Part shown: positions 6,001 through 30,899 of the stretch, in pieces
How positions within the stretch are numbered: position 1 is the first letter of the stretch
Layout of the letters: each line of letters starts with the position of its first letter
Assembly: GCA_029168955.1 (NCBI GenBank)
Contig: JAPDOI010000949.1
Location: 1 to 64,000 of the forward strand
DNA length: 64,000 nucleotides
Direction: 5' to 3'
Source: Aplectana chamaeleonis
Taxonomy: Eukaryota > Nematoda > Chromadorea > Rhabditida > Cosmocercidae
The notes under the pieces: model-generated
What the model was told of the DNA's origin: nothing
Databases searched by the model: none
The model's input: only the letters and a program-made list of their open reading frames with translations
Translations under genes and position numbers: made by a program

Positions 6001-9000
6001 ACCTGGCTTCTGATGACGTCCTCGGGACGTCGTGAAAAGTGCATCTGGCTTCTGATGACGTCATCGGGACGTCGTGAAAAGTGCATCTGGCTTCTGATGA
6101 CGTCATCGGGACGTCGTGAAAAGTGCATCTGGTTTGATGACGCCATCGGGGCGTCGTGAAAGTGCATCTGGCTCTGATGACGTCATCGGGACGTCGTGAA
6201 AAGTGCATCTCGCTTCTGATGACGTCATCGGGACGTCGTGAAAAGTGCATCTGGCTTCTGATGACGTCATCGGGACGTCGTGAAAGTGCATCTGGCTTCT
6301 GATGACGTCAACGGGACGTCTTGTGAAAACTGCATCTGGCTTCTGATGACGTCATCGGGACGTTGTGTGACAAGTGCATCTGGCTTCTGATGACGTCATC
6401 GTGACGTCGTGAAAAGTGCATCTGGCTTCTGATGACGTCATCGGGACGTCGAAAGTGCATCTTGATGACGTCATCGAGACGTCGTGAAAGTGCATCTGGC
6501 TTCTGATGACGTTATCGGGACGTCGTGAGAAGTGCATCTGGATTCTGGTGACGTCATCGGGACGTCGTAAAATTGCATCCGGCTTCTGATCACGTCATCG
6601 GGACGTCGTGAAAGTGCATCTACTTCTGATGACGTCATCGGGACGTCGTGAAAAGTGCATCTGGCTTCTGATGACGTCATCGGGACGTCGTGAAAAGTGC
6701 ATCTGGCTTCTGATGACGTCATCGGGACGTCGTGAAAGTGCATCTGGCTTCTGATGACGTCATCGGGACGTCGTGAAAAGTGCACCTGGCCTCTGATGAC
6801 GTCATCGGGACGTCGTGAAAAAGATGCATCGGTTTGACGTCTGACGTCTGCATTCAGCTACGGATGACGTCATCGGGACGTCGTGAAAAGTGCATCTGGC
6901 TTCTGATGACGTCATTGGGACGTCGTGAAGAGTGCATCTGGCTTCTGATGACGTCATCGGGACGTCGTGAAAAGTGCATAGGGCTCTGATGACGTCATCG
7001 GGACGTCGTGAAAAGTGCATCTGGCTTCTGATGACGTCATTGGGACGTCGTGAAGAGTGCATCTGGCTTCTGATGACGTCATCGGGACGTCGTGAAAAGT
7101 GCATCTCGCTTCTGATGACGTCATCGGGACGTCGTGAAAAGTGCATCTGGCTTCTGATGACGTCATCGGGACGTCGTGAAAAGTGCATCTGGCTTCTGAT
7201 GACGTCATCGGGACGTCGTGAAAAGTGCATCTGGCTTCTGATGACGTCATCGGGACGTCGTGAAAAGTGCATCTGGCTTCTGATGACGTCCTCGGGACGT
7301 CGTGAAAAGTGCATCTGGCTTCTGATGACATCAACGGGACTTTGTGAAAACTGCATCTGGCTTCTGATGACGTCATCGGGACGTCGTGAAAAGTGCATCT
7401 GGCTTCTGATGACGTCACCGTGACGTCGTGAAAACTGCATCTGGCTTCTGATGAAGTCATCGGGACGTCGCGAAAAGTGCATCTAGCTTCTGATGACGTC
7501 ATCGAGACGTCGTGAAAAGTGCATCTGGCTTCTGATGACGTCATCGGGACGCCGTGAAAAGTGCATCTGGCTTCTGATGACGTCATCGGGACGTCGTGAA
7601 AAGTGCATCTGGCTTCTGATGACGTCATCGGGACGTCGTGAAAAGTGCATCTGGCTTCTGATGACGTCATCGGGACGTCGTGAAAAGTGCATCTGGCTTC
7701 TGATGACGTCATCGGGACGTCGTGAAAAGTGCATCTGGCTTCTGATGACGTCATCGGGACGTCGTGAAAAGTGCATCTGGCTTCTGATGACGTCATCGGG
7801 ACGTCGTGAAAAGTGCATCTGGCTTCTGATGACGTCATCGGGACGTCGTGAAAAGTGCATCTGGCTTCTGATGACGTCATCGGGACGTCGTGAAAAGTGC
7901 ATCTGGCTTCTGATGACGTCATCGGGACGTCGTGAAAAGTGCATCTGGCTTCTGATGACGTCAACGGGACTTTGTGAAAAGTGCATCTGGCTTCTGATGA
8001 CGTCATCGGGACGTCGTGAAAAGTGCATCTGGCTTCTGATGACGTCATCGGGACGTCGTGAAAAGTGCATCTGGCTTCTGATGACGTCATCGGACGTCGT
8101 GAAAGTGCATCTGGCTTCTGATGACGTCATCGGGACGTCGTGAAAAGTGCATCTGGCTTCTGATGACGTCATCGGGACGTCGTGAAAGTGCATCTGGCTT
8201 CTGATGACGTCAACGGGACTTTGTGAAAAAGCTACGTCGAAAGTGCATCTGGCTTCTGATGACGTCATCGGGACGTCGTGAAAAGTGCATCTGGATTCTG
8301 ATGACGTCATCGGGACGTCGTGAAAAGTGCATCTGGCTTCTGATGACGTCATCGGACGTCGTGAAAGTGCATCTGGCTTCCTGATGACGTCATCTGGACG
8401 TCGTGAAAAGTGCATCTGGCTTCTGATGACGTCATCGGGACGTCGTGAAAAGTGCATGTGGCTTCTGATGACGTCATCGGGACGTCGTGAAAAGTGCATC
8501 TGGCTTCTGATGACGTCATCGAGACGTTGTAAAAAGTGAATCTGGCTTCTGATGACGTCATCGGGACGTCGTGAAAGTGCATGGGGCTTCTGATTACGTC
8601 ATCGGGACGTCGTGAAAAGTGCATCTGGCTTCTGATGACGTCATCGGGACGTCGTGAAAGTGCATCTGGCTTGTGATGACGTCATCGGGACGTCGTGAAA
8701 AGTGCATCTGGCTTCTGATGACGTCATCGGGACGTCGTAAAAAGTGCATCTGGCTTCTGATGACGTCATCGGGACGTCGTGAAAAGTGCATCTGGCTTCT
8801 GATGACGTCATCGGGACGTCGTGAAAAGTGCATTTGGCTTCTGATGACGTCATCGGGACGTCGAAGAAAGTGCATCTGGCTTCTGATGACGTCATCGGGA
8901 CGTCGTGAAAGTGCATCTGGCTTCTGATGACGTCATCGGGACGTCGTGAAAAAGTGCATCTGGCTTCTGATGACGTCATCGGGACGTCGTGAAAAGTGCA

Positions 9001-12000
9001 TCTCGCTTCTGATGACGTCATCGGGACGTCGTGAAAAGTGCATCTGGCTTCTGATGACGTCATCGGGACGTCGTGAAAAGTGCATCTGGCTTCTGATGAC
9101 GTCATCGACGTCGTGAAAGTGCATCTATTTCTGATGACGCCATCGGGACGTCGTGAAAAGTGCATCTGGCTTCTGATGACGTCATCGGGACGTCGTGAAA
9201 AGTGCATCTGGCTTCTGATGACGTCATCGGGACGTCGTGAAAAGTGCATCTGGCTTCTGATGACGTCATCGGGACGTAGTGAAAAGTGCATCTGGCTTCT
9301 GATGACGTCATCGGGACGTCGTGAAAAGTGCATCTGGCTTCTGATGACGTCATCGGGACGTCGTGAAAAGTGCATCTGGCTTCTGATGACGTCATCGGGA
9401 CGTCGTGAAAGTGCATCTGGCTTCTGATGACGTCATCGGGACGTCGTGAAAAAGTGCATCTGGCTTCTGATGACGTCATCGGGACGTCGTGAAAAGTGCA
9501 TCTGGCTTCTGATGACGTCATCGGGACGTCGTGAAAGTGCATCTGGCTTCTGATGACGTCATCGGGACGTCGTGAAAAGTGCATCTGGCTTCTGATGACG
9601 TCATCGGACGTCGTGAAAGTGCATCTGGCTTCTGATGACGTCATCGGGACGTCGTGAAAAGTGCATCTGGCTTCTGATGACGTCATCGGGACGTCGTGAA
9701 AAGTGCATCTGGCTTCTGATGACGTCATCGGGACGTCGTGAAAAGTGCATCTGGCTTCTGATGACGTCATCGGGACGTCGTGAAAAGTGCATCTGGCTTC
9801 TGATGACGTCATCGGGACGTCGTGAAAGTGCATCTGGCTTCTGATGACGTCATCGGGACGTCGTGAAAAAGTGCATCTGGCTTCTGATGACGTCATCGGG
9901 ACTTTCGTGAAAAAGTGCATCTGGCTTCTGATGACGTCATCGGGACGTCGTGAAAGTGCATCTGGCTTCTGATGACGTCATCGGGACGTCGTGAAAAGTG
10001 CATCTGGCTTCTGTTAGCGTCATCGGGGCGTCGTGAAAAGTGCATCTGTGTTCTGATGGCGTCATCGGTGACGTCGTGAAAAGTGCATCTGGCTTCTGAT
10101 GACGTCATCGGGACGTCGTGAAAAGTGCATCTGGCTTCTGATGACGTCATCGGAAGGACGTGAAAAGTGCATCTGGCTTCTGACGACGTCATCGGGACGC
10201 GTGAAAAGTGCATCTGGCTTCTGATGACGTCATCGGGACGTCGCGAAAAGTGCATCTGGCTTCTGATGACGTCATCGGGACGTCATGAAAAATGCATCTG
10301 GCTTCTGATGACGTCATCGGGACGTCGTGAAAAGTGCATCTGGCTTCTGATGACGTCATCGGGACGTCGTGAAAAGTGCATCTGGCTTCTGATGACGTCA
10401 TCGGGACGTCATGAAAAATGCATCTGGCTTCTGATGACGTCATCGGGACGCGTGAAAAAAGCATATGGCCTCTGATGACGTCATCGGGACGTCGTGAAAA
10501 GTGCATCTGGTTTCTGATGACGTCATCGGGACGTCGTGAAAAGTGCATCTGGCTTCTGACGACGTCATCGGGACGTCGTGAAAAGTGCATCTGGCTTCTG
10601 ATGACGTCATCGGGACGTCGTGAAAAGTGCATCTGGCTTCTGATGACGTCATCGGGACGTCGTGAAAAGTGCATCTGGCTTCTGATGGCGTCATCGAAAC
10701 GTTGGGAAAAGTGCATCTGGCTTCTGATGACGTCATCGGGACGTCGTGAAAAGTGCATCTGGCTTCTGATGACGTCATCGGGACGTCGTGAAAAGTGCAT
10801 CTGGCTTCTGATGACGTCATCGGGACGTCGTGAAAAGTGCATCTGGCTTCTGATGACGTCATCAGGACGTCGTGAATATGCCTCTGGCTTCTGATGACGT
10901 CATCGGGACGTCGTGAAAAGTGCATCTGGCTTCTGATGACGTCAACGGACGTCGTGAAAAGTGCATCTGGCTTCTGATGACGTCATCGGGACGTCGTGAA
11001 AAGTGCATCTGGTTTCTGATGACGTCATCGGGACGTCGTGAAAAGTGCATCTGGCTTCTGATGACGTCATCGGGACGTCGTGAAAAGTGCATCTGGCTTC
11101 TGATGACGTCATCGGGACGTCGTGAAAAGTGCATCTGGCTTCTGATGACGTCATCGGGACGTCGTGAAAGTGCATCTGGCTGATGACGTCAACGGGACTT
11201 TGTGAAAAGTGCATCTGGCTTCTGCTGACGTCATCGGGACGTCGTGAAAAGTGCATCTGGCTTCTGATGACGTCATCGGGACGTCGTGAAAAGTGCATCT
11301 GGCTTCTGATGACGTCAACGGGACTTTGTGAAAAGTGCATCTGGCTTCTGATGACGTCATCGGGACGTCGTGAAAAGTGCATCTGGCTTCTGATGACGTC
11401 ATCGGGACGTCGTGAAAAGTGCATCTGGCTTCTGATGACGTCATCGGGACGTCGTGAAAAGTGCATCTGGCTTCTGATGACGTCATCGGGACGTCGTGAA
11501 AAGTGCATCTGGCTTCTGACGACGTCATCGGGACGTCGTGAAAAGTGCATCTGGCTTCTGACGACGCCATCAGGACGTCGTGAAAAGTGGATCTGGCTTC
11601 TGATGACGTCATCGGGACGTCGTGAAAAGTGCATCTGGCTTCTGATGACGTCATCGGGACGTCGTGAAAAGTGCATCTGGCTTCTGACGACGTCATCGGG
11701 ACGTCGTGAAAAGTGCATCTGGCTTCTGATGACGTCATCGGGACGTAAAAAAAGTGCATCTGGCTTCTGATGACGTCATCGGGACGTCGTGAAAAGTGCA
11801 TCTGGCTTCTGATGACGTCATCGGGACGTCGTGAAAAGTGCATCTGGCTTCTGACGACGTCATCGGGACGTCGTGAAAAAAGCATATGGCCTCTGATGAC
11901 GTCATCGGGACGTCGTGAAAAGTGCATCTGGCTTCTGATGACGTCATCGGGACGTCGTGAAAAGTGCATCTGGCTTCTGATGACATCATCGGGTCGTCGT

Positions 12001-15000
12001 GAAAAGTGCATCTGGCTTCTGATGACGTCATCGGGTCGTCGTGAAAAGTGCATCTGGTTTCTGATGACGTCATCGGGACGTCGTGAAAGTGCATCTGGCT
12101 TCTGATGACGTCATCGGGACGTCGTGAAAAGTGCATCTGGCTTCTGATGACGTCATCGGGACGTCGTGAAAAGTGCATCTGGCTTCTGATGACGTCAACG
12201 GACTTTGTGAAAAGTGCATCTGGCTTCTGATGACGTCATCGGGACGTCGTGAAAGTGCATCTGGCTTCTGATGACGTCATCGGGACGTCGTGAAAAGTGC
12301 ATCTGGCTTCTGATGACGTCAAGGGACTTTGTGAAAAGTGCATCCGGCTTCTGATGACGTCATCGGGACGTCGTGAAAAGTGCATCTGGCTTCTGATGAC
12401 GTCATCGGGACGTCGTGAAAAGTGCATCTGGCTTCTGATGACGTCATCGGGACGTCGTGAAAAGTGCATCCGGCTTCTGATGACGTCATCGGGACGGTGT
12501 GAAAAGTGCATCTGGCTTCTGATGACGTCATCGGGACGTCGTGAAAAGTGCATCTGGCTTCTGATGACGTCATCGGGACGTCGTGAAAAGTGCATCTGGC
12601 TTCTGATGACGTCATCGGGACGTCGTGAAAAGTGCATCTGGCTTCTGATGGCGTCATCGGGACGTCGTGAAAAGTGCATCTGGCTTCTGATGACGTCATC
12701 GGGACGTCGTGAAAAGTGCATCTGGCTTCTGATGACGTCATCGGGACGTCGTGAAAAGTGCATCTGGCTTCTGATGACGTCATCGGGACGTCGTGAAAGT
12801 GCATCTGGCTTCTGATGACGTCATCGGGACGTCGTGAAAAGTGCATCTGGCTTCTGATGACGTCATCGGGACGTCGTGAAAAGTGCATCTGGCTTCTGAT
12901 GACGTCATCGGGACGTCGTGAAAAGTGCATCTGGCTTCTGATGACGTCATCGGGACGCCGTGAAAAGTGCATCTGGCTTCTGATGACGTCATCGGGACGT
13001 CGTGAAAAGTGCATCTGGCTTCTGATGACGTCATCGGGACGTCGTGAAAAGTGCATCTGGCTTCTGATGACGTCATCGGGACGTCGTGAAAAGTGCATCT
13101 GGCTTCTGATGACGTCATCGGGACGTCGTGAAAAGTGCATCTGGCTTCTGATGACGTCATCGGGACGTCGTGAAAAAGGCATCTGGCTTCTGATGACGTC
13201 ATCGGGACGTCGTGAAAAGTGCATCTGGCTTCTGATGACGTCATCGGGACGTCGTGAAAAGTGCATCTGGCTTCTGATGACGTCAACGGGACTTTGTGAA
13301 AAGTGCATCTGGCTTCTGATGACGTCATCGGGACGTCGTGAAAAGTGCATCTGGCTTCTGATGACGTCATCGGGACGTCGTGAAAAGTGCATCTGGCTTC
13401 TGATGACGTCATCGGGACGTCGTGAAAAGTGCATCTGGCTTCTGATGACGTCAACGGGACTTTGTGAAAACTGCATCTGGCTTCTGATGACGTCATCGGG
13501 ACGTTGTGTGACAAGTGCATCTGGCTTCTGATGACGTCATCGTGACGTCGTGAAAAGTGCATCTGGCTTCTGATGACGTCATCGGGACGTCGTGAAAAGT
13601 GCATCTGGCTTCTGATGACGTCATCGAGTCGTCGTGAAAAGTGCATCTGGCTTCTGATGACGTCATCGGGACGTCGTGAAAAGTGCATCTGGCTTCTGAT
13701 GACGTCATCGGGACGTACTGAAAAGTGCATCTGGCTTCTGATGACGTCAACGGGACTTTGTGACAAGTGCATCTGGCTTCTGATGACGTCATCGTGACGT
13801 CGTGAAAAATGCATCTGGCTTCTGATGACGTCATCGGGACGTCGTGAAAAGTGCATCTGGCTTCTGATGACGTCATCGGGACGTCGTGAAAAGTGCATCT
13901 GGCTTCTGATGACGTCATCGGGACGTCGTGAAAAGTGCATCTGGCTTCTGATGACGTCAACGGGACTTTGTGAAAAGTGCATCTGGCTTCTGATGACGTC
14001 ATCGGGACGTCGTGAAAAGTGCATCTGGCTTCTGATGACGTCAACGGGACTTTGTGAAAAGTGCATCTGGCTTCTAATAACGTCATCGGGACGTCGTGAA
14101 AAGTGCATCTGGCTTCTGATGACGTCATCGGGACGGCGTGAAAAGTGCATCTGGCTTCTGATGACGTCAACGGGACTTTGTGAAAAGTGCATCCGGCTTC
14201 TGATGACGTCATCGGGACGTCGTGAAAAGTGCATCTGGCTTCTGATGACGTCATCGGGACGTCGTGAAAAGTGCATCTGGCTTCTGATGACGTCATCGGG
14301 ACGTCGTGAAAAGTGCATCTCGCTTCTGATGACGTCATCGGGACGTCGTGAAAAGTGCATCTGGCTTCTGATGACGTCATCGGGACGTCGTGAAAAGTGC
14401 ATCTGGCTTCTGATGACGTCAACGGGACTTTGTGAAAACTGCATCTGGCTTCTGATGACGTCATCGGGACGTTGTGTGACAAGTGCATCTGGCTTCTGAT
14501 GACGTCATCGTGACGTCGTGAAAAGTGCATCTGGCTTCTGATGACGTCATCGGGACGTCGTGAAAAGTGCATCTGGCTTCTGATGACGTCATCGAGACGT
14601 CGTGAAAGTGCATCTGGCTTCTGATGACGTCATCGGGACGTCGTGAAAAGTGCATCTGGCTTCTGATGACGTCATCGGGACGTCGTGAAAGTGCATCTGG
14701 CTTCTGATGACGTCAACGGGACTTTGTGAAAGTGCATCTGGCTTCTGATGACGTCATCGGGACGTCGTGAAAAGTGCATCTGGCTTCTGATGACGTCATC
14801 GGGACGTCGTGAAAAGTGCATCTTGCTTCTGATGACGTCATCGGGACGTCGTGAAAAGTGCATCTGGTTCCTGATGACGTCATAGGGACGTCGTGAAAAG
14901 TGCATCTGGCTTCTGATGACGTCATCGGGACGTCGTGAAAAGTGCACCTGGCTTCTGATGACGTCATCGGGACGTCGTGAAAAGTGCATCTGGCTTCTGA

Positions 15001-17843
15001 TGACGTCATCAAGACGTCGTGAAAAGTGCATCTGGCTTCTGATGACGTCATCGGGACGTCGTGAAAAGTGCATCTGGCTTCTGATGACGTCATCGGGACG
15101 TCGTGAAAAGTGCATCTGGCTTCTGATGACGTCATCGGGACGTCGTGAAAAGTGCATCTGGCTTCTGATGACGTCCTCGGGACGTCGTGAAAAGTGCATC
15201 TGGCTTCTGATGACATCAACGGGACTTTGTGAAAAGTGCATCTGGCTTCTGATGACGTCATCGGGACGTCGTGAAAAGTGCATCTGGCTTCTGATGACGT
15301 CATCGGGACGTCGTGAAAAGTGCATCTGGCTTCTGATGACGTCATCGGGACGTCGTGAAAAGTGCATCTGGCTTCTGATGACGTCATCGGGACGTCGTGA
15401 AAAGTGCATCTGGCTTCTGATGACGTCATCGGGACGTCGTGAAAGTGCACCTGTCCTCTGATGACGTCATCAGGACGTCGTGAAAAGTGCATCTGGCTTC
15501 TGATGACGTCATCGGGACGTCGTGAAAAGTGCATCTGGCTTCTGATGACGTCATCGGGACGTCGTGAAAAGTGCATCTGGCTTCTGATGACGTAATCGGG
15601 ACGTCGTGAAAAGTGCATCTGGCTTCTGAAGACGTCATGGGGACGTCGTGAAAAGTGCACCTGGCTTCTGATGACGTCCTCGGGACGTCGTGAAAAGTGC
15701 ATCTAGCTTCTGATGACATCAACGGGACTTTGTGAAAAGTGCATCTGGCTTCTGATGACGTCATCGGGACGTCGTGAAAAGTGCATCTGGCTTCTGATGA
15801 CGTCATCGGGACGTCGTGAAAAGTGCATCTGGCTTCTGATGACGTCGTCGGGACGTCGTGAAAAGTGCATCTGGCTTCTGATGACGTCATCGGGACGTCG
15901 TGATAAGTGCATCTGGCTTCTGATGACGTCATCGGAACGTCGTGAAAAGTGCATCTGGCTTCTGATGACGTCAACGGGACTTTGTGAAAAGTGCATCTGG
16001 CTTCTGATGACGTCATCGGGACGTCGTGAAAAGTGCATCTGGCTTCTGATGACGTCATCGGGACGTCGTGAAAAGTGCATCTGGCTTCTGATGACGTCAA
16101 CGGGACTTTGTGAAAAGTGCATCTGGCTTCTGATGACGTCATCGGGACGTTGTGTGACAAGTGCATCTGGCTTCTGATGACGTCATCGTGACGTCGTGAA
16201 AAGTGCATCTGGCTTCTGATGACGTCATCGGGACGTCGTGAAAAGTGCATCTGGCTTCTGATGACGTCATCGAGTCGTCGTGAAAAGTGCATCTGGCTTC
16301 TGATGACGTCATCGGGACGTCGTGAAAAGTGCATCTGGCTTCTGATGACGTCATCGGGACGTCGTGAAAAGTGCATCTGGCTTCTGATGACGTCAACGGG
16401 ACTTTGTGAAAAGTGCATCTGGCTTCTGATGACGTCATCGGGACGTCGTGAAAAGTGCATCTGGCTTCTGATGACGTCATCGGGACGTCGTGAAAAGTGC
16501 ATCTGGCTTCTGATGACGTCATCGGGACGTCGTGAAAAGTGCATCTGGCTTCTGATGACGTCATCGGGACGTCGTGAAAAGTGCATCTGGCTTCTGATGA
16601 CGTCATCGGGACGTCGTGAAAAGTGCACCTGGCCTCTGATGACGTCATCGGGACGTCGTGAAAAGTGCATCTGGCTTCTGATGACGTCATCGGGACGTCG
16701 TGAAAAGTGCATCTGGCTTCTGATGACGTCATCGGGACGTCGTGAAAAGTGCATCTGGCTTCTGATGACGTCATCGGGACGTCGTGAAAAGTGCATCTGG
16801 CTTATGATGACGTCATCGGGACGTCGTGAAAAGTGCATCTGGCTTCTGATGACGTCTTCGGGACGTCGTGAAAAGTGCATCTAGCTTCTGATGACATCAA
16901 CGGGACTTTGTGAAAAGTGCATCTGGCTTCTGATGACGTCATCGGGACGTCGTGAAAAGTGCATCTGGCTTCTGATGACGTCATCGGGACGTCGTGAAAA
17001 GTGCATCTGGCTTCTGATGACGTCATCGGGACGTCGTGAAAAGTGCATCTGGCTTCTGATGACGTCATCGGGACGTCGTGAAAAGTGCATCTAGCTTCTG
17101 ATGACGTCATCGGGACGTCGTGAAAAGTGCACCTGTCCTCTGATGACGTCATCAGGACGTCGTGAAAAGTGCATCTGGCTTCTGATGACGTCATCGGGAC
17201 GTCGTGAAAAGTGCATCTGGCTTCTGATGACGTCATCGGGACGTCGTGAAAAGTGCATCTGGCTTCTGATGACGTAATCGGGACGTCGTGAAAAGTGCAT
17301 CTGGCTTCTGAAGACGTCATGGGGACGTCGTGAAAAGTGCACCTGGCTTCTGATGACGTCCTCGGGACGTCGTGAAAAGTGCATCTGGCTTCTGATGACA
17401 TCAACGGGACTTTGTGAAAAGTGCATCTGGCTTCTGATGACGTCATCGGGACGTCGTGAAAAGTGCATCTGGCTTCTGATGACGTCATCGGGACGTCGTG
17501 AAAAGTGCATCTGGCTTCTGATGACGTCATCGGGACGTCGTGAAAAGTGCATCTGGCTTCTGATGACGTCATCGGGACGTCGTGAAAAGTGCATCTGGCT
17601 TCTGATGACGTCATCGGGACGTCGTGAAAAGTGCACCTGGCCTCTGATGACGTCATCGGGACGTCGTGAAAAGTGCATCTGGCTTCTGATGACGTCATCG
17701 GGACGTCGTGAAAAGTGCATCTGGCTTCTGATGACGTCATCGGGACGTCGTGAAAAGTGCATCTGGCTTCTGATGACGTCATCGGGACGTCGTGAAAAGT
17801 GCATCTGGCTTATGATGACGTCATCGGGACGTCGTGAAGAGTG
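1..17843 (+). repeat. 42-bp satellite array (about 420 monomers)
   Basis: Head-to-tail array of a 42-bp monomer; a clean example is 7569-7610. Each monomer holds the 10-bp palindrome ATGACGTCAT, then a second GACGTC a few bases on, then GTGAAAAGTGCATCT. Recurrent variants are a CAACGGGACTTTGTG form, a form with GTTGTGTGACAAG (+2 bp) and 41-bp forms lacking one A in the GAAAAG run. Because 42 is a multiple of three and the consensus lacks stops in one forward and two reverse frames, it yields long open frames of 14-residue repeats; these are a by-product, with no start context, splice signals or non-repeat domain. The first 7 kb have many indels and odd monomers (for example around 6830-6870), while 7.4-17.8 kb is far more uniform. 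The array enters from the left window edge, so its true length is unknown. Confidence 0.97.
15449..17432 (+). repeat. Higher-order duplication inside the satellite
   Basis: A run of rare monomer variants at 15449-15730 (GCACCTGTCCTC, GTAATCGGG, GAAGACGTCATGGGG, GTCCTCGGG, then the CAACGGGACTTTG form) recurs in the same order at 17131-17410. The offset is 1682 bp, that is 40 monomers plus the 2-bp insertion carried by one variant monomer in between. This shows block duplication by unequal exchange rather than single-monomer spread. Confidence 0.8.
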
Positions 17844-18487
17844 GCACTACTCGCTTTCTACGAACACTCCTTATGAAGGTCAAAAACTAGTTCGCCGAAA
17901 TTCGCTGCAGTTTACAGCTCTCCTATGTTACTAACACCTACGTTACCAAGTAACCTCCACAAAACGACGCACGATTAGATTCCTGACCAGCAAAAGGCGT
18001 CACAGATCGATGCGTAGAACTGAGACAAAATGGGGTATAGGGACCCATTACCCCGAAAATTCGCCTGATGCAGTCAACGTGGCATAATTAGGCCTCGATG
18101 GAGCATGATCTTTCTTGATCATGAGCGGTTGTTTAGCTGCTAACCGATGTCCTCACCCACCCCAACATGCGGTTAGCGTAACCGTGTCATAACCCAGTTC
18201 TCCTCCGGTTAACGAGTGTATGAATCGCAGGTAAATGCTCTAGGTCGACCGGTTCAGCTAACTTACCGGAGGAAATGCAATGATGAATCATAACCTAGAA
18301 TACCCAACACGACAGAACAAATTCACGTTCAAGCTCCCTTCATTGTCAGCGGCTGGTTAGCCATTAACCGGTGCTTTCAACTAACCGCTTCTTTCAACCG
18401 GTCAGTTAGCGTGTGAAAAACTGATAACGGTTGCGATTAGCCGATAACGCTAACTTACCACCGAAAATGCTTTGATGAATCCGGCCT
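17844..18487 (+). mobile_element. Right terminal region of TIR transposon E
   Basis: Non-satellite DNA that starts where the 42-bp array stops and ends at a 16-bp terminal repeat reading AGGCCGGATTCATCAA on the minus strand. The region from about 18110 is packed with TAACCG/CGGTTA words, a subterminal repeat pattern typical of TIR transposons. A partial internal copy of the end lies near 18247-18295. It abuts CTG at 18488-18490, the 3-bp target duplication also found at the other end of E (23971-23973). A 3-bp duplication suggests a CACTA- or PIF/Harbinger-type element, but no transposase is visible, so the superfamily is open. Confidence 0.65.
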
Positions 18488-19421
18488 CTGGAGTACGCCG
18501 ACGACATTGTGTTATTCGCTGAAAACAACGCAAAACTGCAAAGGATTGTGAACCCCGTTTCGAAGTATGCCGCAGCCTATGGACTTCGTCTTCGTCCCGA
18601 CAAATGCAAGCAGATGTGGGTCTCTCAGAGGCCTTCAACGAGAGTTTGTGTGGACGGACAACGTATCGAACTGGTGGACGATTTCTGTTATTTGGGCTGT
18701 TTGCTGAAGAACGATGGTAGTTATGCAGCGGATATTCGACAACGATGTGCGAAAGCTACGTCTGCATTTAATTCTCTAACCAAGTGTTTGTGGTCTACCA
18801 CCATCGCGAAGGAAGTCAAGTTGCGCGTCTACCTATCCGCTATTCGCCCTATCATGATGTACAGATCGGAGACGTGGGCAGCACCGAAGACGCAGATGGA
18901 AAGGTAGGACTGCAGGGAGAGGAAGCTTTTTAGGCGTTTGCTTGGATATTTCTGGCCGCGTGTATGCCATAACGAAGACCTTTACAAGGAAATCGACGCA
19001 GTACATCAACGCTTGACACGAGGGAGGTGCCAGCATCTCCTAACGCCATCTCAAGCAGCAATGGAAAGTCGACTTCGACTGCTCGGGCATATACTAAGAA
19101 GAACGCCGGATCGTCTCGTACAACACGCTCTAAGAATGCTTCCAACTACTGTCTGGAAACGGCCACCTGGGCGTAGGCGAAAGTTCTGGACGGATGTGGT
19201 CAAAGAGGATTTGGAGTCACTCGGCATCGAAAGACAGTTCAGGCGCGATGTTTCGTTTCGCAGGAAATGGAATAGTGACAGCTGGATGGAATGTGTTCAA
19301 ATTGTGGCTCAAGACCGTGAAAAATGGACACTGCTGACTACTAGGACGGCACACCTCGGTGAAGATGCGGAATGACCGCGTCAGGCGAAAGCCAACCGAT
19401 TAAGTCAAGTAAGTCAATGAA
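18488..19421 (+). pseudogene. RTE-type retrotransposon, 3' half (RT palm to tail)
   Basis: Encodes the C-terminal part of a non-LTR reverse transcriptase. It opens right at the catalytic box (EYADDIVLFAE), followed by a thumb region, a YLGCLLKNDG motif typical of RTE-like proteins, and a tail rich in W, R and K ending with a stop near 19375. The 3' end has AAGTCAAGTAAGTCAATGA, like the short repeat tails of RTE elements. One in-frame TAG at 18905-18907 interrupts an otherwise open frame, so this copy is dead but not very old. The 5' half of the same kind of element lies inverted at 23971-26340, cut at exactly the same codon. A second copy at 56411-56968 shows the uninterrupted target sequence. 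Confidence 0.88.
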
Positions 19422-19639
19422 AGGTACATTATTATTCATACGCAGGTTTTTCAGAAAAACTAGCAAGTAAAAAGTATGCAAAGCAACTATACGAAAAAAC
19501 TTCTAGGAAGAATAACTAGTCACTTGGTCATCTCACTTGACCACGCCCATTTTTCGGCGCCGCAACGACTGCTCCGATTTCGATTTCGGAAGGAAGAAAA
19601 TTCTAGGTTGATGTACCTAATAGAAGGCGGTACGGAAAA

Positions 19640-19860
19640 ATGGGCGTGGCCTAGTGCAATTTTATCCGGTTTTATCCAAAAATTATCCGAATTTATCCAA
19701 AATTTTACCCGAATTATATCCGATATTTATCCGATTTTATCCGAATTTTCGACCCTTCGGATATTGGTCCGATTCAGGTAATGCGTTTTTTCGATTTTTC
19801 GGATATCGGATTATCCGAATCTCGGATATTCGAAAAGGAGCGAATCGGATACTAAGTATA
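19640..19860 (+). mobile_element. hAT-like element, right end (ATCCGA words)
   Basis: Subterminal array of ATTTATCCGA/TCGGAT words ending in AAGTATA, followed by the octamer GTTCACGA at 19861-19868. The mirror end lies at 26960-27152, where the same octamer follows in reverse complement (27153-27160). Reading inward, both ends begin TATACTT and soon reach TATCC. An 8-bp duplication fits the hAT superfamily. The stretch 19422-19639 shows no gene. Confidence 0.6.
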
Positions 19861-19868
19861 GTTCACGA

Positions 19869-20471
19869 TGTGTTTAGCATACGTTCCAACAAAAAGGGAA
19901 CAATAGGAAAGTCAAATTAGGAGAGTGTACAAGGAGTGAACAATATCTTCTCGAAGCGATAATTTTGGCCGACTCTTCTGAACAGCAAAAACAAACCGTT
20001 GCGGTGTTCGACACGGAAGCACATTGTGGTTCCGAAAGCGGTTCTGACTACGCGAGAACCATTAAAATGTATATGCATGTAAACCTAATACTTACCATCA
20101 AAACAGAAGATGATTTCAAAAAGACCTACACAGCTGGTTAGCTCCAGCTGTAAGGAGAAGCGAAACTATAGAATAGAAGTACAGCATCAAGCAAGAGTAT
20201 TCCCATAAATAAACTCTTCCTCGTAAAATTCCACAACGGTTTGTTTTCGCTGTTCAGAATAGTCGACCAAAATTATCGCTTTGAGAAGATATTGTTCACT
20301 TTTTGTACACTCTCCTCAATTGGCTTTCCTATTTTTCCCTTTTTGTTGGAACGTTTCTGACACGAACCAAACCTCTTTCGCTTGGAAGACCCCTTTTGGA
20401 TAGAATTGTTCACTTTTATCGATATTACGCAGTAATATTTCATGTGTGTAATTTATGCAAAACTAGCATAC
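19869..20471. other. Non-coding spacer, nothing recognised
   Basis: AT-rich unique-looking DNA outside the hAT-like end. I see no open frame with coding character, RNA gene or TIR here. In the inversion model it is the original flank of the nested insertion. Confidence 0.5.
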
Positions 20472-20953
20472 TTAAAGGCAGTGTTCACGATGAAAAAAGT
20501 TTTCGAAATTCCACTAGGATTGGGTAGTGGATGGACACTCTGTAACGTTAACGTCGAAAGAACGCATGAAAACGAGCCAGGAAGAGCCCCAAAAGAGCCC
20601 GAAGTTGCAACTTTGAGCGCATTGAAAACCCCAAAAGCGCATCACACGCCCACCGACGTGCTCGAGATCGTGAGATGAGCGATGATTTTCAATCATTAGC
20701 CCCGTTCTTCCCTTCATTCTCAGCTTCTCTCTTTACTCAGGTCAGCTGGCATAGATCGGCTGCAAAAGACGGAAGTTACAAGCCTCGGACAACTCGTCCA
20801 CCATGTTTTAATAGCTCAATCTTTGAGGGACCATACCTGCGTTTACAGAAGGTCTTGTGTGATTTCAGAGACACCATTGGAGTCAGCATGGGGCCGTTTT
20901 CAAGATAAGCGGAAAAACAGAAAAACGATTTTCATCGTGAACACTGCCTTTAA
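20472..20953 (+). mobile_element. TTAA MITE, family A1
   Basis: Both ends are TTAA followed by the inverted repeat AGGCAGTGTTCACGATGA, so it is a piggyBac-type (TTAA target) non-autonomous element of about 480 bp. It has no coding capacity of its own. A decayed copy in the opposite orientation is at 58808-59195, and the related family A2 (30450-30899) shares the same terminal repeat with a different interior. Confidence 0.8.
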
Positions 20954-21016
20954 TTACGCTTAGTTATTCGGTGCATACATAGGCTGCTAGAACACACCGA
21001 CTTCCCTTGTTCGTTT

Positions 21017-23623
21017 GAGAGTTATAATTACAGAAATCTACATTCGGCGAAATCGTTTCTGAAGGACATGAATAGTTCAATTCTCGATCCATTATCGGCG
21101 ATCCTTCCAAAAACTGCAGTGAACGCAAAGACTACGATTATTGTCAATATGTGTGCGAAAGGTTCATAAAGCCCAGCAGAAATAAAGACGACGCCTCGAT
21201 GACGTCATCAGAAGCCAGATGCACTTTTCGCGACGTTCCGATGACGTCAACAGAAGCCAGATGCACTTTTCATGACGTCCCGATGACGTCATCAGAAGCC
21301 AGATGCACTTTTCACGACGTCCCGATGACGTCATCAGAAGCCAGATGCACTTTTCACGACATCTCGATGACGTCATCAAAAGCCAGCTGCACTTTCACGA
21401 CGTCCCGATGACGTTATTAGAAGCCAGATGCACTTTTCACGACGTCCCGATAACGTCATCAGAAGCCAGATGCACTTTTCACGACGTCCCGATGACGTCA
21501 TCAGAAGCCAGATGAACTTGTCAAGACGTCCCGATGACATCATCAGAAGCCAGCTGCACTTTCCACGACGTCTCGATGACGTCATCAGAAGTCAGATGCA
21601 CTTTTTTTACGACGTCCCGATGACGTCATCAGAAGCCAGATGCACTTTTCACGACGTCCCGATGACGTCATCAGAAGCCAGATGCACTTTTCACGACGTC
21701 GCGATAACGTCATCAGAAGCCAGATGCACTTTTCACGACGTCAAATGACGTCATCAGAAGCCAGATGCACTTTTCACGACGTCCCGATGACGTCATCAGA
21801 AGCCAGATGCACTTTTCACGACCTCCCGATGACGTCATCAGAAGCCAGCTGCACTTTTCACGACGTCCCGATGACGTCATCAGAAGCCAGCTGCACTTTT
21901 CACGACGTCCCGATGACGTCATCAGAAGCCAGCTGCACTTTTCACGACGTCCCGATGACGTTATTAGAAGCCAGATGCACTTTTCACGACGTCCCGATGA
22001 CGTCATCAGAAGCCAGATGAACTTGTCAAGACGTCCCGATGACATCATCAGAAGCCAGCTGCACTTTCCACGACGTATCGATGACGTCATCAGAAGCCAG
22101 ATGCACTTTTCACGACGTCTCGATGACGTCATCATAAGCCAGATGCACTTTTCACGACGTCCCGATGACGTCATCAGAAGCCAGATGCACTTTTCACGAC
22201 GTCCCGATGACGTCATCAAACCAGATGCACTTTTCACGACGTCCCGATGACGTCATCAGAAGCCAGATGCACTTTCACGACGTCGATGACGTCATCAGAA
22301 GCCAGATGCACTTTTCGACGTCCGATGACGTCATCAGAAACCAGATGCACTTTTCACAAAGTCCGTTGATGTCATCAGAAGCTAGATGCACTTTTCACGA
22401 CGTCCCGAGGACGTCATCAAACCAGATGCACTTTCACGACGTCCCGATGACGTCATCAGGCCAGCCGCTGCACTTTCCACGACGTCTCGATGACGTCATC
22501 AGAACCAGATGCACTTTTACGACGTCTCGATGACGTCATCATAAGCCAGATGCACTTTTCGACGTCCGATGAGCGTCATCAGAACCAGATGCACTTTTCG
22601 ACGACGTCCCGATGACGTCATCAGAGCCAGATGAACTTGTCAATACGTCCTGATGACATCATCAGAAGCCAGCTGCACTTCCACGACGTCTCGATGACGT
22701 CATCAGAGCCAGATGCACTTTTTACGACGTCCGATGACGTCATCAGAAAGATGCACTTTTCACGACGTCCCGATGACGTCATCAGAGCCAGATGCACTTT
22801 CACGACGTCCCGATAACGTCGTGAAAGTGCAGCTGGCTTCTGATGACGTCATCGGGACGTCGTGAAAAGTGCAGCTTGCCTCTGATGACGTCATCGGGAC
22901 GTCGTGAAAAGTGCATCTGGCTTCTGATGACGTCATCGGGACGTCGTGAAAAGTGCATCTGGCTTCTGATGACGTTATCGGGACGTCGTGAAAACTGCAT
23001 CTGGCTTCTGATGACGTCATCGGGACGTCGTGAAAAGTGCATCTGGCTTCTGATGACGTCATCGGGACGTCGTAAAAAAAGTGCATCTGGCTTCTGATGA
23101 CGTCATCGAGACGTCGTGGAAAGTGCAGCTGGCTTCTGATGATGTCATCGGGACGTCTTGACAAGTTCATCTGGCTTCTGACGACGTCATCGGGACGTCG
23201 TGAAAAGTGCATCTGGCTTCTAATAACGTCATCGGGACGTCGTGAAAGTGCAGCTGGCTTCTGATGACGTCATCGAGATGTCGTGAAATGTGCATCTGGC
23301 TTCTGATGACGTCATCGAGACGTCGTGAAAAGTGCATCTGGCTTCTGATGACGTCATCGGGACGTCATGAAAAGTGCATCTGGCTTCTGTTGACGTCATC
23401 GGAACGTCGCGAAAAGTGCATCTGGCTTCTGATGACGTCATCGAGGCGTCGTCTTTATTTCTGCTGGGCTTTATGAATCTTTCGCACACATATTGACAAT
23501 AAGAATAGTCTTTGCGTTCACTGCAGTTTTTGGAAGGATCGCCGATAATGGATCGAGAATTGAACTATTCATGTCCTTCAGAAACGATTTCGCCGAATGT
23601 AGATTTCTGTAATTATAACTCTC
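21017..23623. repeat. Satellite palindrome with 180-bp unique arms
   Basis: Outer arms of about 180 bp (21017-21195 and 23444-23623) are inverted copies of one non-satellite sequence beginning GAGAGTTATAATTAC. Inside, the 42-bp satellite runs in reverse orientation from about 21196 to 22810 and forward from there to 23443. The variant monomers next to both arms come in the same order (CGCGACGTTCC, GTCAACAG, CATGACG, GACATCTCG, the short CAGCTGCACTTTCACG form, GTTATTAG), so this is a true inverted duplication. A block of about 12 monomers, marked by GATGAACTTGTCAAG, repeats at 21511, 22016 and 22630. These monomers often have CAGCTGGCTTC, rare in the main array, so they form a separate subfamily. 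The arms differ by scattered substitutions. Confidence 0.9.
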
Positions 23624-23970
23624 ATTATGACACCGCGTAAAACCGTGCGAACTCAATCAGTTTCTCGCCTGCCTAATCGGGCCGAAGATCGTCCAAAGAG
23701 CGATCTCAAACCTGATCACAGGTTCTATTAATTACAAACACGCATGCAACACGTTCAAATTCGACCGCTCACTCTCATTTTGCTATAAGATACTTATATA
23801 CCTATCTCCGATTGATATCAACAGATTCTGGTTGATGTCACTACATCTTATCTCAAATCCCATTTGGTGAATCGCAGTTAGGCTTAACCGCGGCGAAACT
23901 AGGTGGTTAAGCTCCGGTTTCGCTAACCGCGGTTACTCACTAACCGCGGTAAGATTGATGGATCCGGCCT
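23624..23970 (-). mobile_element. Left terminal region of TIR transposon E
   Basis: Ends at 23970 with AGGCCGGATCCATCAA on the minus strand, matching the other end of E (18472-18487) at 15 of 16 positions. Next to it are several CGCGGTTAG/TAACCG words, as at the other end. The flanking CAG at 23971-23973 is CTG on the minus strand, the same 3-bp target duplication. A 34-codon frame (plus strand, 23627-23731, start MTPRKTVRTQ, basic) lies here; nothing else supports it as a gene. Confidence 0.65.
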
Positions 23971-26340
23971 CAGGTCGACAAGGGATCGTCCTGATGGTGT
24001 TAGGATCACATCCGCAGGAAACTGTTCTGCAACTCTACGCATGATGTCATCAACGGCGAAGTTGAAAAGAAAAGGTCCTGCAACGGCTCCTTGCCTTACT
24101 CCTGTTTTCACCTCGAAAGCTGACTTAAATCCGACAGGTGTACGAACTGCTGCTGTTGTTCCTTTGTTCATGTCCTCGATTAACCGAACATACTTTTCCG
24201 GGACTCCATCTGCTCGCAGAGCATTGAGCAATCGATCACGATGAGGAGAGTCGAACACGGCTTTAAAGTCCAAAAAAAGCAAGCTGTAAAGGCTTCGAAT
24301 ACCGCTGCCACGATTCAATTACTCTTCTCACGACGAACACTTGGTCGATGGTCGATCTTCCAGGTCGAAAACCGGCTTGCACATCTCTGGTCGTTCCATC
24401 ACGATGTTTGATAAGTCGCTCGAGAATGATACGTTCCAAAACCTTGTACATGACACGAAGTAGAGAGATTCCTCTGTAGTTCTTAGGATCCGTGACGGAT
24501 AGCTTCTTGTGAAGAGGTACGATGATCGCATGTCTCCACGAATCGGGTATCCTTTCGCTCATCCTTATGGCACGGATGGTGTTGGTCAATTCACGAATCC
24601 CAGACGGAGAAAGAGCTTTCAGCATTTCAGCAGTGATGTTGTCATCTCCACCTGCCTTTCCATTCTTCATTTTCCGAACACAATCCAAAACTTCAGACTC
24701 AGTCGGCGGTTCCTCACTGACATCGTAATGTGCTCTCTGAACATGCCGGAGCTCAGGTACTGATGGCGCTGGACGATTCAGTAGTGAACTGAAGTAATCC
24801 TTCCATATTGGCAGCGTCGCATCACCAACTGCAACTCCATTGGTAGTGTTTAAGACAGGAGAACATCTCTTCATCTTCCCGCTATACTGTCGCAGCAACG
24901 TGTAGGCTTTCCTCGGATTCTTCTCCTCCCAAGCCTTCTCGAACTCCTTAGCTCTACACGTCCACTCTCGTTCGCGGTCACTTTGGAGCTGCCGACGCAA
25001 CTTCCTCCTCAGACGCTTCTCCTCCACGAAGTTTCCTGCAGTTCGGAGAGCACATACCTTGTTGTAAGTAAACGTCGTTTCCTCTGAGACGTAGGCGAAC
25101 TTCTTCCTAGGCTGTACAACCGGGAGTGCCTCTTTCGAAGCGTCCTGGATGCACTTGACAAAGAATCCGCGTCGCAAAGTTTCTACTTAGTCCGTACTCC
25201 GATGTGAATAGAAACGCGTTGTCGAAAATTCCTTCTGCATTCTTCATCTCTGAGACTTGTCATGTCAATTCTCTGGAGAGCCCCTCGCTTCCTCTTATGG
25301 ATCCTCGCAGTGAAGTTCAACAGAACAGGACGGTGATCCGAATCGAATGCGACATCCCACACAGCTCTAGATCTTCGAATGTCCGATACTGGAATATTCC
25401 TCGTCAGGACATAGTCGAGCTGTAATTTCAAAGTTGTCATCTTCCGCTTCCGCTGCTCTTCTGGAGATAGCTGGGTTGGTCCCTGTCACGTAAGCTGATG
25501 ATCCCTCTTAAATGTCGATGCAACAATAAGACCACTGCGTTCACAAAAGTCGACAAGGCGGTAGCCATTGTCCGATGTTTGCTGCACTGGGTAGAAGCAT
25601 TTACCGAGTACTTCGGATTCCTGATCAAGTCCCACTTTCGCATTTGCGTCAATTCCCACGACAACAGCATGTTGACGGGGTATCCTGGCCAGCAACGTAT
25701 ATTGAGTTCCTCATAAAACACATCCTTCGAATTGTCCTCGGCGGTTTCAGTGGGTGCATGAGCACTCACTATCACAGGTTGAATCCTCTGTGATCCCGCA
25801 GTCGTACGAATGCATTCCGGCACGACGTTGAACCAAACTCCTTGACCGTACCATTGAAATCCTTACTTACAACTATTGCACAGCCTCCCACTCTCCTATC
25901 GTCAGCGTTACCGCAGTAGATGGTGTACTCTCCGACGCTGATGACGGGTCTATCCTTGAGGCGGGTTTCCTGCAAAGCAGCAAACGGTGCATGGAAATAG
26001 CTCAGAAGTCTGGATAACGCAGTTTTTTGGATATCACTCGACAGCGATCGACAGTTCAGGGTGGCGAAATTGTGGCTTGTGGCCAAAGACTCCATGACTC
26101 CCTAGGTACGGATCCTAAGGTGTTATGGACCAGAGGCCTTAGTGTGCCGGACGGCGACACCTTTATGCAATGTGTGGGATACTTTCGCGATATAGTTGTG
26201 CACGCTATATCGCTCGAACGTTCCCTGTGTACACTCAAACGTCTGCTGGGTTCAGTAGAAGCAGGGGCACCAACGAGCAGGTACCAACAGACTTGTATAC
26301 ACACCCCCAATATGCATATATTAAAGTGCCTTTCATTAAT
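23971..26340 (-). pseudogene. RTE-type retrotransposon, 5' half (endonuclease and RT fingers/palm)
   Basis: Reading down the minus strand: a 5' region, then an AP-type endonuclease (ATLNCRSLSSD and QETR near 26070-25980; GIDANAKVG near 25650; SDHRPVLL near 25330), then a reverse transcriptase with PLHKK, NYRGISLL, QAGFRPGRST, LFLDFKAVFDS and RQGAVAGP. It stops at GRSLVDL, one residue before the YADD box. Several frameshifts break it, including near 25800, at about 25180 and in the A-run at 24272-24278, so it is dead. The missing 3' half is the plus-strand fragment at 18488-19421. The endonuclease nicks target DNA and the RT copies element RNA onto it; here only remnants remain. Confidence 0.9.
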
Positions 26341-26349
26341 ATGCACATA

Positions 26350-26834
26350 TTAAAGGCACAGTCCAACCTCAGAATCGATTTTTCGCTTTCTGCCTATCTT
26401 GGAGAAATTTTCACTCTGATCACGATGGTGTCTCCAGAATCGCTCAGAACCCACTACGAACGGAGTTACGGCTCTTCAAAAATTTCGATTTTGAACAGCT
26501 AGAAGTTCGCGGACGAGTTGTCTCGAGCCTGTATTTTCTCGTTGTTCGCAGCCATCGTTCTGAAGCAGGCCACAATATAAAGCCAGACCGAAAACAAATA
26601 GAAGAACATATGTAGGTTTTGAATAAAATCATTCGCGCGTCTCTTACCTATTGAGGTCGGAAACCTGGCAGTGATCGTTACCCATTTTTTTCTTTCAAGG
26701 GGCGTGGTCGACTTTTTCCTAGCTTTTTCTCGCTTATTTGAGCGAATTGAGATTTTGCGCTTGGCAGGGTTGCTACAGGCGGCGACCGGACCATAATATC
26801 AAAAATTACCTCTGAGGTTGGACTGTGATTTTAA
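26350..26834 (-). mobile_element. TTAA MITE, family A3
   Basis: Begins TTAA plus AGGCACAGTCCAACCTCAGA and ends with the inverse (TGAGGTTGGACTGTG) plus TTAA; the last few bases before the right TTAA are altered. Its interior matches the element at 30896-31382 in the opposite orientation, including a shared GAGACAACTCGTCC segment. No coding capacity. Confidence 0.75.
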
Positions 26835-26959
26835 GATTGAAGTTTGTATGTGAACATGCTGCAAATGCAATGAAGTACTACTGTTTGCTCAATTACGGAT
26901 GTTTTCATAGACTTGCCTTGAGCACCTGGTTTATTTTTCACCGTTTTGCCTCAACTTTG

Positions 26960-27152
26960 TTCTGAAAATATCCGAAGTATCCGACCGGATATATCCGAAT
27001 TATTGGAAATATTGCATTATCTGAATCGATCCATTATCCGAAAAATTGAAAAAGCGCAATAAACGGAATCGAGCCAATATCCGGAAAATTTAAAATCGGC
27101 ATTATCCGAATCGATCCCTTATCCGAAAAATTATTTTTGGATAACAAGTATA
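26960..27152 (-). mobile_element. hAT-like element, left end (ATCCGA words)
   Basis: Array of TATCCGAA/TCGGAT words ending in AAGTATA at 27152, then TCGTGAAC, which is the reverse complement of the octamer beside the other end (19861-19868). Word content and terminal TATACTT match the end at 19640-19860. It lies outside the 5' half of the RTE, as the other end lies outside the 3' half. Confidence 0.6.
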
Positions 27153-27299
27153 TCGTGAACCCGAAAAGAGAGAAAGTGTGCGCTAAGCAAAAACTGATTT
27201 CCACTCTCGTCATTGTTAAAGCTACTACTTCTCTCACAAGTGTTTATGTGTATGAAGCACGGTTAAAGAAGGTAGGCGAGCATATCAGCAGCCACTCTC

Positions 27300-27361: not shown

Positions 27362-27558
27362 AACCGCAAACATACACTTTTTCACATGCATGTGGAAAAG
27401 TTCAAGACGTCAATCATCTCTGGTACGACATGATCAGCTTGGTTTGGTGCAAAGCGATGCATCGCTGTTGATGAACCAGAGCTCGGGGGTTCGCATCCGA
27501 GAGAACTCTAGTTTTGCGAACAAATATGTACCTATGTGGCGGTTCCCAGTCCGACTTA

Positions 27559-28639
27559 CAAGGGAAGTATAAAAAGCGTAGGTCGGATCTACGAAAACGA
27601 CTAGTATGGTTAGTATCTCTTCTGGCTCAATAGTAAAAATGCGCAGTATCCCGCCGCGAGCCGCAGGCTCAAAAAAGTTATGAGCATTTTTTAAGCCTGG
27701 CGAAAAGGCAAGGGTACCACCCATCAGGCATTTTTTTGAAGTTTCAAAAAATTTTCTCGGACTTAGCTCAAAAGTTGTATGTAGGGGTAATCTAGGATTG
27801 CGAATACGAATCTGGAGTCCATTTGTCGAAATTTTGAGGTTTACTGTAGGTTACGGTAGGTAACATGTCATTTAGGGGTCAAAACCCACCTTAGTATTTT
27901 GAAAATTGACAAACGGACGATAAATTCGTATTCTCCACCCCGAATAACCCCCGTATACAAATTTCGAGTAAAATCTGAGATTTTGACCAAACTACCGTAT
28001 ACCCACCGTAATCTAGCGTAATCTGCAAAAGATCGATAAACGGACTCCAGATTCGTGTTTAGCACTCCAGATAACCCTCAGAGAATGATTTTGAGACATA
28101 TCTATCGTAGAAAACCGGAAATCTCGAAAATGGCATTTTCCCTCGAAATTTTCCCCGGTTGGGAATCTTCAAACGAAATTAGCCGAAAACATTGGAAAAT
28201 CGACTAATTAACCACAGATTCGTGATCAGCGTCCCGAAAAACCTCCTAGGAAAATTTTAAGTCAAATCTGGAACATTTTTCTAAAACGCTTCCAGAGCCC
28301 TCAATTGGTAGAAATAAACGCCCAACCGAAAATCCGTACAAGTCCAAAACGCTGTCAGTCTGGACAAAGTACGGAAAATGTTCGTTCACCCAAAATTTGC
28401 TCAGGGTGGTAGTTTTGGGTGCTGAACACATTTATGAGGTCCGTTTCCGGATTTTCCGAAGAATAACGCGCTTTTTGGAAGGTACAAAAAGCACAAAAAA
28501 TGAGCTTTTTAAGCTTGTAACTTCTTGGAACCTGCAGCTCGGGGCGGGATACTGCGCAGTTTTACTATTGAGCCACAAGAGATACTAATGACACTAGTCG
28601 TTTTGGCAGATCCGACCTACGCTTTGTATACTTCCCTTG
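27559..28639. mobile_element. PIF/Harbinger-like TIR element (TTA target)
   Basis: Terminal repeats begin CAAGGGAAGTATA and stay similar for about 95-120 bp (through GCGCAGTATCCCGCC). Both sides carry TTA (27556-27558 and 28640-28642), the usual PIF/Harbinger duplication. The interior holds many TTACGGTAGG and AAAATCTGAGATTTT words and no transposase, so it is non-autonomous. Confidence 0.7.
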
Positions 28640-28848
28640 TTAGAGTTACACTGATGTTTCAGTCTACATTATCTCATCATTAGCGCGAGATGATCAAAGT
28701 TCTTAACCTCTCAGTTCTGGCTAGTTCACTACCACCCCTGGTTAAGACTTTCGGGATACAACTGTGGATGTATCAACTGTCGAGAAATTGACACTGAAAA
28801 TTTTTGAAAATGACCGTTGCAAAACTATACCACCTCAGGCAATTCACC

Positions 28849-30449: not shown

Positions 30450-30899
30450 TTAAAGGCAGCGTTCACGATGATCATCCTCGTTGACTTTCCACAGTGAAAT
30501 GATAGGCAAGAAGGATCCTAGGCTCCCAGTGTCGAAAAAACGGTAGAAAACGAGCCATGAGCGGCAAAATAACGGCTGCAAACAAGCGTTTTAGTGCCCC
30601 AGACACGCCTGGTGCCCCAGATCCACCCCTCGAAAAGAACAAATGAAGACTCAGATTACAGGAATGATCAAGTGAAGGAAGTGCTGATAAGTGAGCTGAT
30701 CGCTTCATTGCACTGATAGGTATCATCCTTCTAGCGGTCAATTCCTCCACGCTCAAAAATCAACGTAAACAAGAGTGGGCCTCTTTTTGCTCAAAAACGC
30801 GTCTTTCGTGTCCTTTTAAGCATGCCTTCCTATATAAGGCACCAGACCTTTCACCGTGGAGATATCGGAAGTGAAATTTATCATGAACACTACCTTTAA
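30450..30899 (+). mobile_element. TTAA MITE, family A2
   Basis: TTAA plus AGGCAGCGTTCACGATGAT at the left and ATCATGAACACTACCT plus TTAA at the right. The interior is shared with the truncated inverted copy at 63805-64000 (for example CTCCACGCTCAAAAATCAAC). It shares its right TTAA with the next element. Confidence 0.8.

Follow-up and report, generated by a model that had tools for sequence, protein, structure and literature searches.

How did the two halves of a single RTE-like retrotransposon, cut at the same base, come to lie in opposite orientation near the start of contig C2037 in the genome assembly of the nematode Aplectana chamaeleonis? The window analysed here is the first 64 kb of that contig (248,465 bp; the assembly comprises 1,036,593,504 bases in 2087 contigs). 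The answer that we prefer, with a probability of roughly 0.7, is that breaks occurred in an element with terminal inverted repeats (TIRs), termed E, and in the 42-bp satellite of another element, termed K, that about 5 kb was inverted, and that one end folded back on the self-complementary satellite and was then rejoined. Layered, nested transposons carrying a probable small inversion represent a rearrangement of an ordinary kind, here well documented; a fault of assembly at the seam would be a less likely explanation. Literature searches, judged by title, returned no description of this locus, which is not a claim that none exists in print.

The retrotransposon and the duplications that flank it were delimited as follows; here and below, other scored copies are the rows scored among the first-look candidates, with the window locus excluded.

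18488..19415, + strand: 3' half of the RTE-like retrotransposon, 98% identical to 39 other scored copies (of 1745 candidates) and 94.0% identical to the window copy at 56433-56968
23971..26310, - strand: 5' half with reverse transcriptase (RVT_1), inverted, 95-98% identical to 39 other scored copies (of 5294 candidates)
19416..19440, + strand: 3' copy of the RTE target-site duplication, from comparison with the empty site
26311..26337, - strand: 5' copy of the RTE target-site duplication, from comparison with the empty site

The intact junction, GTCGACCTGGAGTACG, has a single occurrence in the window, at 56427(+); the separate halves of the junction are at 18488(+) and 23971(-). This bears out the sequence-only reading, which had described the two halves as opposed in orientation, cut at the same base and represented by an intact junction elsewhere in the window. 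A PF00078 (RVT_1) domain was detected in 24263-25186(-) and in the second RTE copy, at 56412-56984(+). The best protein relatives of this reverse transcriptase are unnamed reverse transcriptases from Necator americanus (74% identity at the top), the species named on all 120 matches listed, of 323. The name RTE was inherited from the earlier reading; judged from the reverse transcriptase domain and the target-site duplication, the element is probably RTE-like. Its 5' boundary had been placed at 26340; five of the 39 other scored rows start at 26310-26312, which we take as the 5' end, and the boundary is corrected to near 26310. Comparison with the empty site in two paralogous loci described below (C177 and C1315) revealed a target-site duplication of approximately 26 bp, the copies of which differ at several positions. 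In the best ungapped 20-mer of the RTE flanks 17 of 20 positions agree; 400 random pairs of 66-mers drawn from the window gave at most 15. Measured against the second window copy, the 3' and 5' halves are 94.0% and 96.6% identical, respectively, a difference that is not significant in Fisher's test (p = 0.059). That second copy (54871-56968) appears to be itself interrupted or rearranged, because its middle, from 55400 to the junction near 56410, could not be aligned to the first copy.

At both cuts the retrotransposon abuts one end of element E.

17844..18487, + strand: E half a, the right end of E with its TIR, 90-95% identical to 39 other scored copies, most of which match it along all 644 bp; its left edge is the satellite/E junction
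23625..23970, - strand: E half b, the left end of E with its TIR, inverted; nearest relatives, at 97%, in contigs C4, C1705 and C1160
18488..18490, + strand: CTG, one copy of the 3-bp target-site duplication of E, from comparison of TIR flanks
23971..23973, - strand: CTG (CAG on the + strand), the other copy, from comparison of TIR flanks

The earlier claim that the same 16-bp inverted terminal repeat (AGGCCGGAT[T/C]CATCAA) and the same CTG adjoin both cuts was confirmed, and CTG also fits the duplications made by the E family. Among 20 E-type TIR pairs in the fetched loci, the three loci of the window itself being left out, 15 are flanked by an exact 3-bp duplication (CAG, CTG or CCG) and 5 by none, a count in which most loci were picked by a pattern that already fixes the C after the TIR; a 4-bp duplication matched at none of the 20 pairs. 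With its constant TIR and a duplication of fixed length, 3 bp, E seems to be one TIR element family. The closest relatives of half a are in C4 (95%) and in C1160 and C1705 (both 94%), the same three contigs that hold the closest relatives of half b, a coincidence with a chance of 1 in 9139 under independent ranking. In these three contigs the E halves are collinear and lie 3.8-4.5 kb apart within elements of 4.8-5.5 kb, and in four other fetched E copies the halves are separated by 558 to 3375 bp. The interior of E (0.6-4.5 kb in the relatives) is missing at the window locus, with only weak matches elsewhere, e.g. at 61099-61280. None of 29 other fetched copies has satellite at the left edge of half a. 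The interiors of four E copies (L010, L015, L020 and L021) contain an internal repeat of about 90 bp in variable copy number, as inferred from overlapping self-matches.

Outside both RTE halves lie the parts of a further, outer TIR element, together with its flanks and a smaller insertion.

19441..19860, + strand: right part of the outer TIR element; end position in other copies; collinear with the left part in C177, C1315 and C847
26835..27152, - strand: left part of the outer TIR element, inverted; matched in C177 and C1315
19861..19868, + strand: right copy of the 8-bp target-site duplication GTTCACGA; GTTCACAC is at the same place in C177 and C1315
27153..27160, - strand: left copy of GTTCACGA; identical octamer in C177 and C1315
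26350..26834, no strand assigned: element F, a small TIR element within the outer element, 73.9% identical to 30896-31382 reversed; absent from C177 and C1315
27161..28742, - strand: flank of the outer element common to C177 and C1315, including an insertion, 27559-28639, without counterpart in either

In the uninverted order this sequence reads GTTCACGA-TATACTTGTTATCC ... GGATACTAAGTATA-GTTCACGA, that is, a direct 8-bp duplication. For the right part, 24 of 39 other scored copies (of 2784 candidates) end at 19858-19862, 7 reach the end of the query, 5 stop 3-16 bp further out and 3 stop short. The sequence-only reading had noted the same octamer outside both RTE halves in opposite orientation. 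That part stands, as the octamer forms a direct repeat in the uninverted order and adjoins the end found in 24 of 39 copies, but the accompanying figure of 1 in 65,000 for chance agreement disregards the local base rate, there being nine occurrences of GTTCACGA in the window. Seven of these, at 20483, 20935, 30461, 44879, 61979, 63786 and 63812, belong to TIR-like ends, (A)AAGGCAGTGTTCACGAT, of another repeat family. The name hAT given earlier to the outer element is not retained: an 8-bp duplication is present, but the TIR begins TATACTT, unlike the CAGRG-like start expected of hAT TIRs, and no transposase was seen (no coding copy was sought).

Paralogues of the outer element preserve the uninverted arrangement. 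Three loci, C177, C1315 and C847, were fetched from seven copies that have the right flank in common. A 1501-bp stretch of C177 contains window 27558-26835 reversed at 98-729 (92.4% identity over aligned bases) and, 16 bp from this reversed left part, window 19416-19881 forward at 746-1253 (91.1% identity); the opposite orientations yielded only scraps (scores 37 and 39 versus 892 and 605). The same order, reversed left part and then forward right part, is found in C1315, and C847 has both parts in the order of C177. The space between the two parts in C177 and C1315 is free of F, RTE and E and holds an empty RTE site instead; their left octamer is GTTCACGA and their right octamer is GTTCACAC. 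Both also contain window 28640-28742 and lack 27559-28639, which is therefore a further insertion; it has inverted ends (27555-27680 versus 28518-28643, 88.9%).

The target-site duplications of the three elements (3 bp for E, 8 bp for the outer element and about 26 bp for the RTE) pair only in the uninverted order. Each of these families is present in many copies (1745 and 5294 first-look candidates in the case of the RTE halves), and fragments of RTE, E and outer element might on that account have come to be neighbours independently. The common cut base and the matching of duplications at three nested levels make such an accident barely conceivable, and the same three nearest E relatives, together with the collinear paralogues, rule it out. 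The nesting proposed in the sequence-only reading, and an inversion with one breakpoint inside E, thus gain support, also from the uninverted paralogues C177 and C1315. The other breakpoint would lie in the satellite of K.

1..17843, + strand: array A, 42-bp satellite, about 424 units of one polarity, from a tandem repeat scan; the contig begins inside it
19881..21187, + strand: left part of the K element, without about 50 bp of its 5' end and including 21017; the flank left of 21018 is common to 26 of 28 other copies
21188..22818, - strand: arm L, the K minisatellite in reverse polarity, from a tandem repeat scan; variant v1 in 3 of 38 monomers
22819..23624, - strand: arm R, an inverted copy of 21018-21863 (satellite and unique K segment), from reversed alignment and private variants
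22208..22817, no strand assigned: error-like tract in arm L, directly left of the polarity switch, from its deletion rate

The segment 19881-21187 and the 42-bp satellite belong together in one dispersed family, K, whose other copies start about 50 bp to the left of window position 19881. In a survey of 28 other copies, each viewed over at most 1500 bp, all run into 42-bp satellite of a single polarity, and 26 of the 28 copies of 21018-21187 keep the sequence left of 21018. Position 21017, previously proposed as a breakpoint, is accordingly no boundary. For 11 copies the view extended to the far end of the satellite; 6 of these have in common a right end of about 350 bp, which the other 5 do not share. 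The hairpin CCAGCCGC-GCGGCTGG is present at the right end in the 5 copies shown. Each 42-bp unit contains a perfect 12-bp palindrome.

These counts also bear on whether 21016-23624 might be a foldback transposon with satellite arms that was inserted whole and recombined later. Inverted arms of tandem repeats around a polarity switch are indeed what such an element would display, but in 26 of 28 other copies a longer element continues across 21017, no copy among the 28 has satellite of both polarities in the part viewed, and no target-site duplication was seen at 21016/23624. We consider this origin very improbable; a foldback transposon with ends of its own at these positions is ruled out by the read-through and by the single polarity of the other K copies.

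Three junctions delimit the rearranged stretch: satellite/E at 17843/17844, the satellite polarity switch at about 22818, and K copy/E at 23624/23625. Each of the new E junctions (17843/17844 and 23624/23625) proved unique when the assembly was searched with up to 2 mismatches allowed. The two sides of the polarity switch have a 5-bp overlap, ACGTC; the other two junctions, read by eye, have no visible overlap. Aligned in reverse, arm R differs from 21018-21863 by 9 mismatches over 797 aligned bases, with 56 gap bases. Variant v1 was found in 3/38 monomers of L and 1/15 of R, as against 0/416 in A and 0/603 in the 28 other K loci (p = 5e-6); for v2 the corresponding counts are 6/38, 3/15, 0/416 and 3/603. 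L and R share 98% identity over the unique K segment, for which the best other scored copy reaches 91% (40 scored of 140 candidates). These private variants and this difference in identity show that L served as the template for R. That R is the same molecule read twice was ruled out separately, L and R differing at 4 of 172 positions in the unique K segment, three of them adjacent.

We therefore propose a course of events that goes beyond the single inversion of the sequence-only reading. Originally, the host sequence would have carried the outer TIR element (8-bp duplication) holding F and the RTE-like element (about 26-bp duplication), E (3-bp duplication) would have resided inside the RTE, and K with its 42-bp minisatellite would have followed 12 bp beyond the outer element. 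Breaks inside E and the K minisatellite would have freed about 5 kb, comprising E half a, the RTE 3' half, the right part of the outer element and the left part of K. This fragment would have been put back in inverted orientation in a single event, by end joining that linked E half a with the distal satellite (array A) and E half b with the K end. Prior to its joining to E half b, the K end would have folded back on its own satellite at the ACGTC overlap and been extended by a reverse copy of about 806 bp, the present arm R. The interior of E would have been lost.

Provided that A is the remainder of the K array, an inversion from E half a to the K satellite would place and orient every piece as observed and would also give A its polarity. 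It leaves the presence of arm R beside E half b unexplained, so that fold-back copying of about 806 bp, followed by joining to E half b, would be needed. Hence the idea that a single inversion accounts for everything holds as regards the inversion, but not for the inverted copy at 22819-23624, which calls for a fold-back duplication, nor for the lost E interior, which calls for a deletion. The divergences of the layers are 8-9% for the outer element (from its C177 relative), 2-5% for the RTE (from other copies) and about 1% substitutions between L and R. The implied ages appear to agree roughly, the L/R figure being soft owing to satellite gene conversion.

The alternative that most deserves attention, although we regard it as unlikely, is an assembly chimera without inversion, in which the K satellite was falsely joined near 22818 to satellite beside E half b; the true order would then run from E half b through the K copy, satellite, E half a, RTE 3' half and outer element to K. 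An error-like tract of 610 bp, which reaches the polarity switch from the left and stops exactly there, has 4.4-4.9 deletions per 100 bases, compared with 0-0.5 in the remaining L and R blocks. It fits unpolished sequence at a false join and would equally fit a real inverted duplicate if nanopore reads were used, as accuracy of such reads falls near the junction of real inverted duplicates according to PMC7229812. The contig also begins in the same satellite, and arrays that exceed the read length and consist of units with 12-bp palindromes favour false joins. However, a chimera would still require a polarity switch in the satellite of E and a copy of the K edge by E half b, so that no event is saved, the junctions 17843/17844 and 23624/23625 would stay, and the L-type variants v1 and v2 are present in the tract up to the switch.

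Apart from this deletion rate, several observations weigh against the inversion with fold-back. By alignment score, the 610-bp tract is slightly closer to A (936, 963) than to L (907) and R (784). The satellite variants of A are not those of L, so that the two need not be one array: v4 is private to A (25/416 monomers versus 0/656 in L, R and the 28 other K loci). The far side of A is out of view, since the contig begins inside it, and a pattern search of the assembly for the K right end adjoining the right flank of the host gave 0 matches. The left flank and left octamer of C847 do not match the GTTCACGA locus. The 3 differences in 20 in the RTE duplication are more than RTE copies of 95-98% identity suggest; the duplication copies may have been altered after insertion. 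Separately, an empty-site query built from the two outer flanks matched K loci, solely via its K part. Deletion rates in A range from 0 to 2.4 per 100 bases; a segment with a raised rate relative to the satellite consensus (5881-7560, 2.1-2.4 per 100) is perhaps low-coverage consensus near the contig start.

After fold-back inverted duplication at a broken end, an inverted copy lies by a spacer, with a short overlap at the switch, and is joined to another broken end. The present locus resembles this in its inverted copy beside a spacer, in the short overlap and in the join to what would be another broken end, and differs in that the copy is inside a minisatellite of palindromic units and beside an inversion. 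Inversion breakpoints located in transposable elements with inverted repeats are described for Atlantic cod (PMC12368964), and the breakpoint in E is comparable. In contrast to the roughly 5 kb seen here, those inversions span megabases, and ectopic recombination between copies was proposed for them; here the breaks are in one E and one satellite, with no homologous E copy at the second breakpoint. Non-autonomous Helentron elements with satellite-like arrays occur in the Pacific oyster (PMC7492417), and K likewise is dispersed and carries a short tandem array; the likeness is anatomical, and at the present locus the array is in addition a site of rearrangement. Palindromic tandem-repeat arms, as found here, characterize Tetris, a Drosophila virilis foldback transposon from which a satellite arose (PMC4079207); a difference is that the palindrome here was seen at one locus, with 0 of 28 other K copies showing it. 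As general background, Helentrons end in a hairpin.

The locus offers a readable, layered case in which nested transposons, together with a mobile minisatellite, have reshaped a nematode chromosome, and it illustrates that paralogous empty sites within one assembly can back an inversion call without population data. It also carries a caution, as the seam falls in satellite that is self-complementary, the kind of sequence in which long-read assemblies deserve the least trust. A long shot is that K-type elements are recurrent makers of fold-back inversions genome-wide, a broken array snapping back, copying its own edge and capturing a second broken end; if true, small inversions would build up wherever K has landed.

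Two other repeats were observed in the window. Tandem copies of a unit of about 613 bp, 96-98% identical, occupy 36444-38619, and part of another copy lies at 41360-41638. A fragment of a Tc3-type transposase (PF11427, PF21517, PF01498) is present at 46633-47379 (-).

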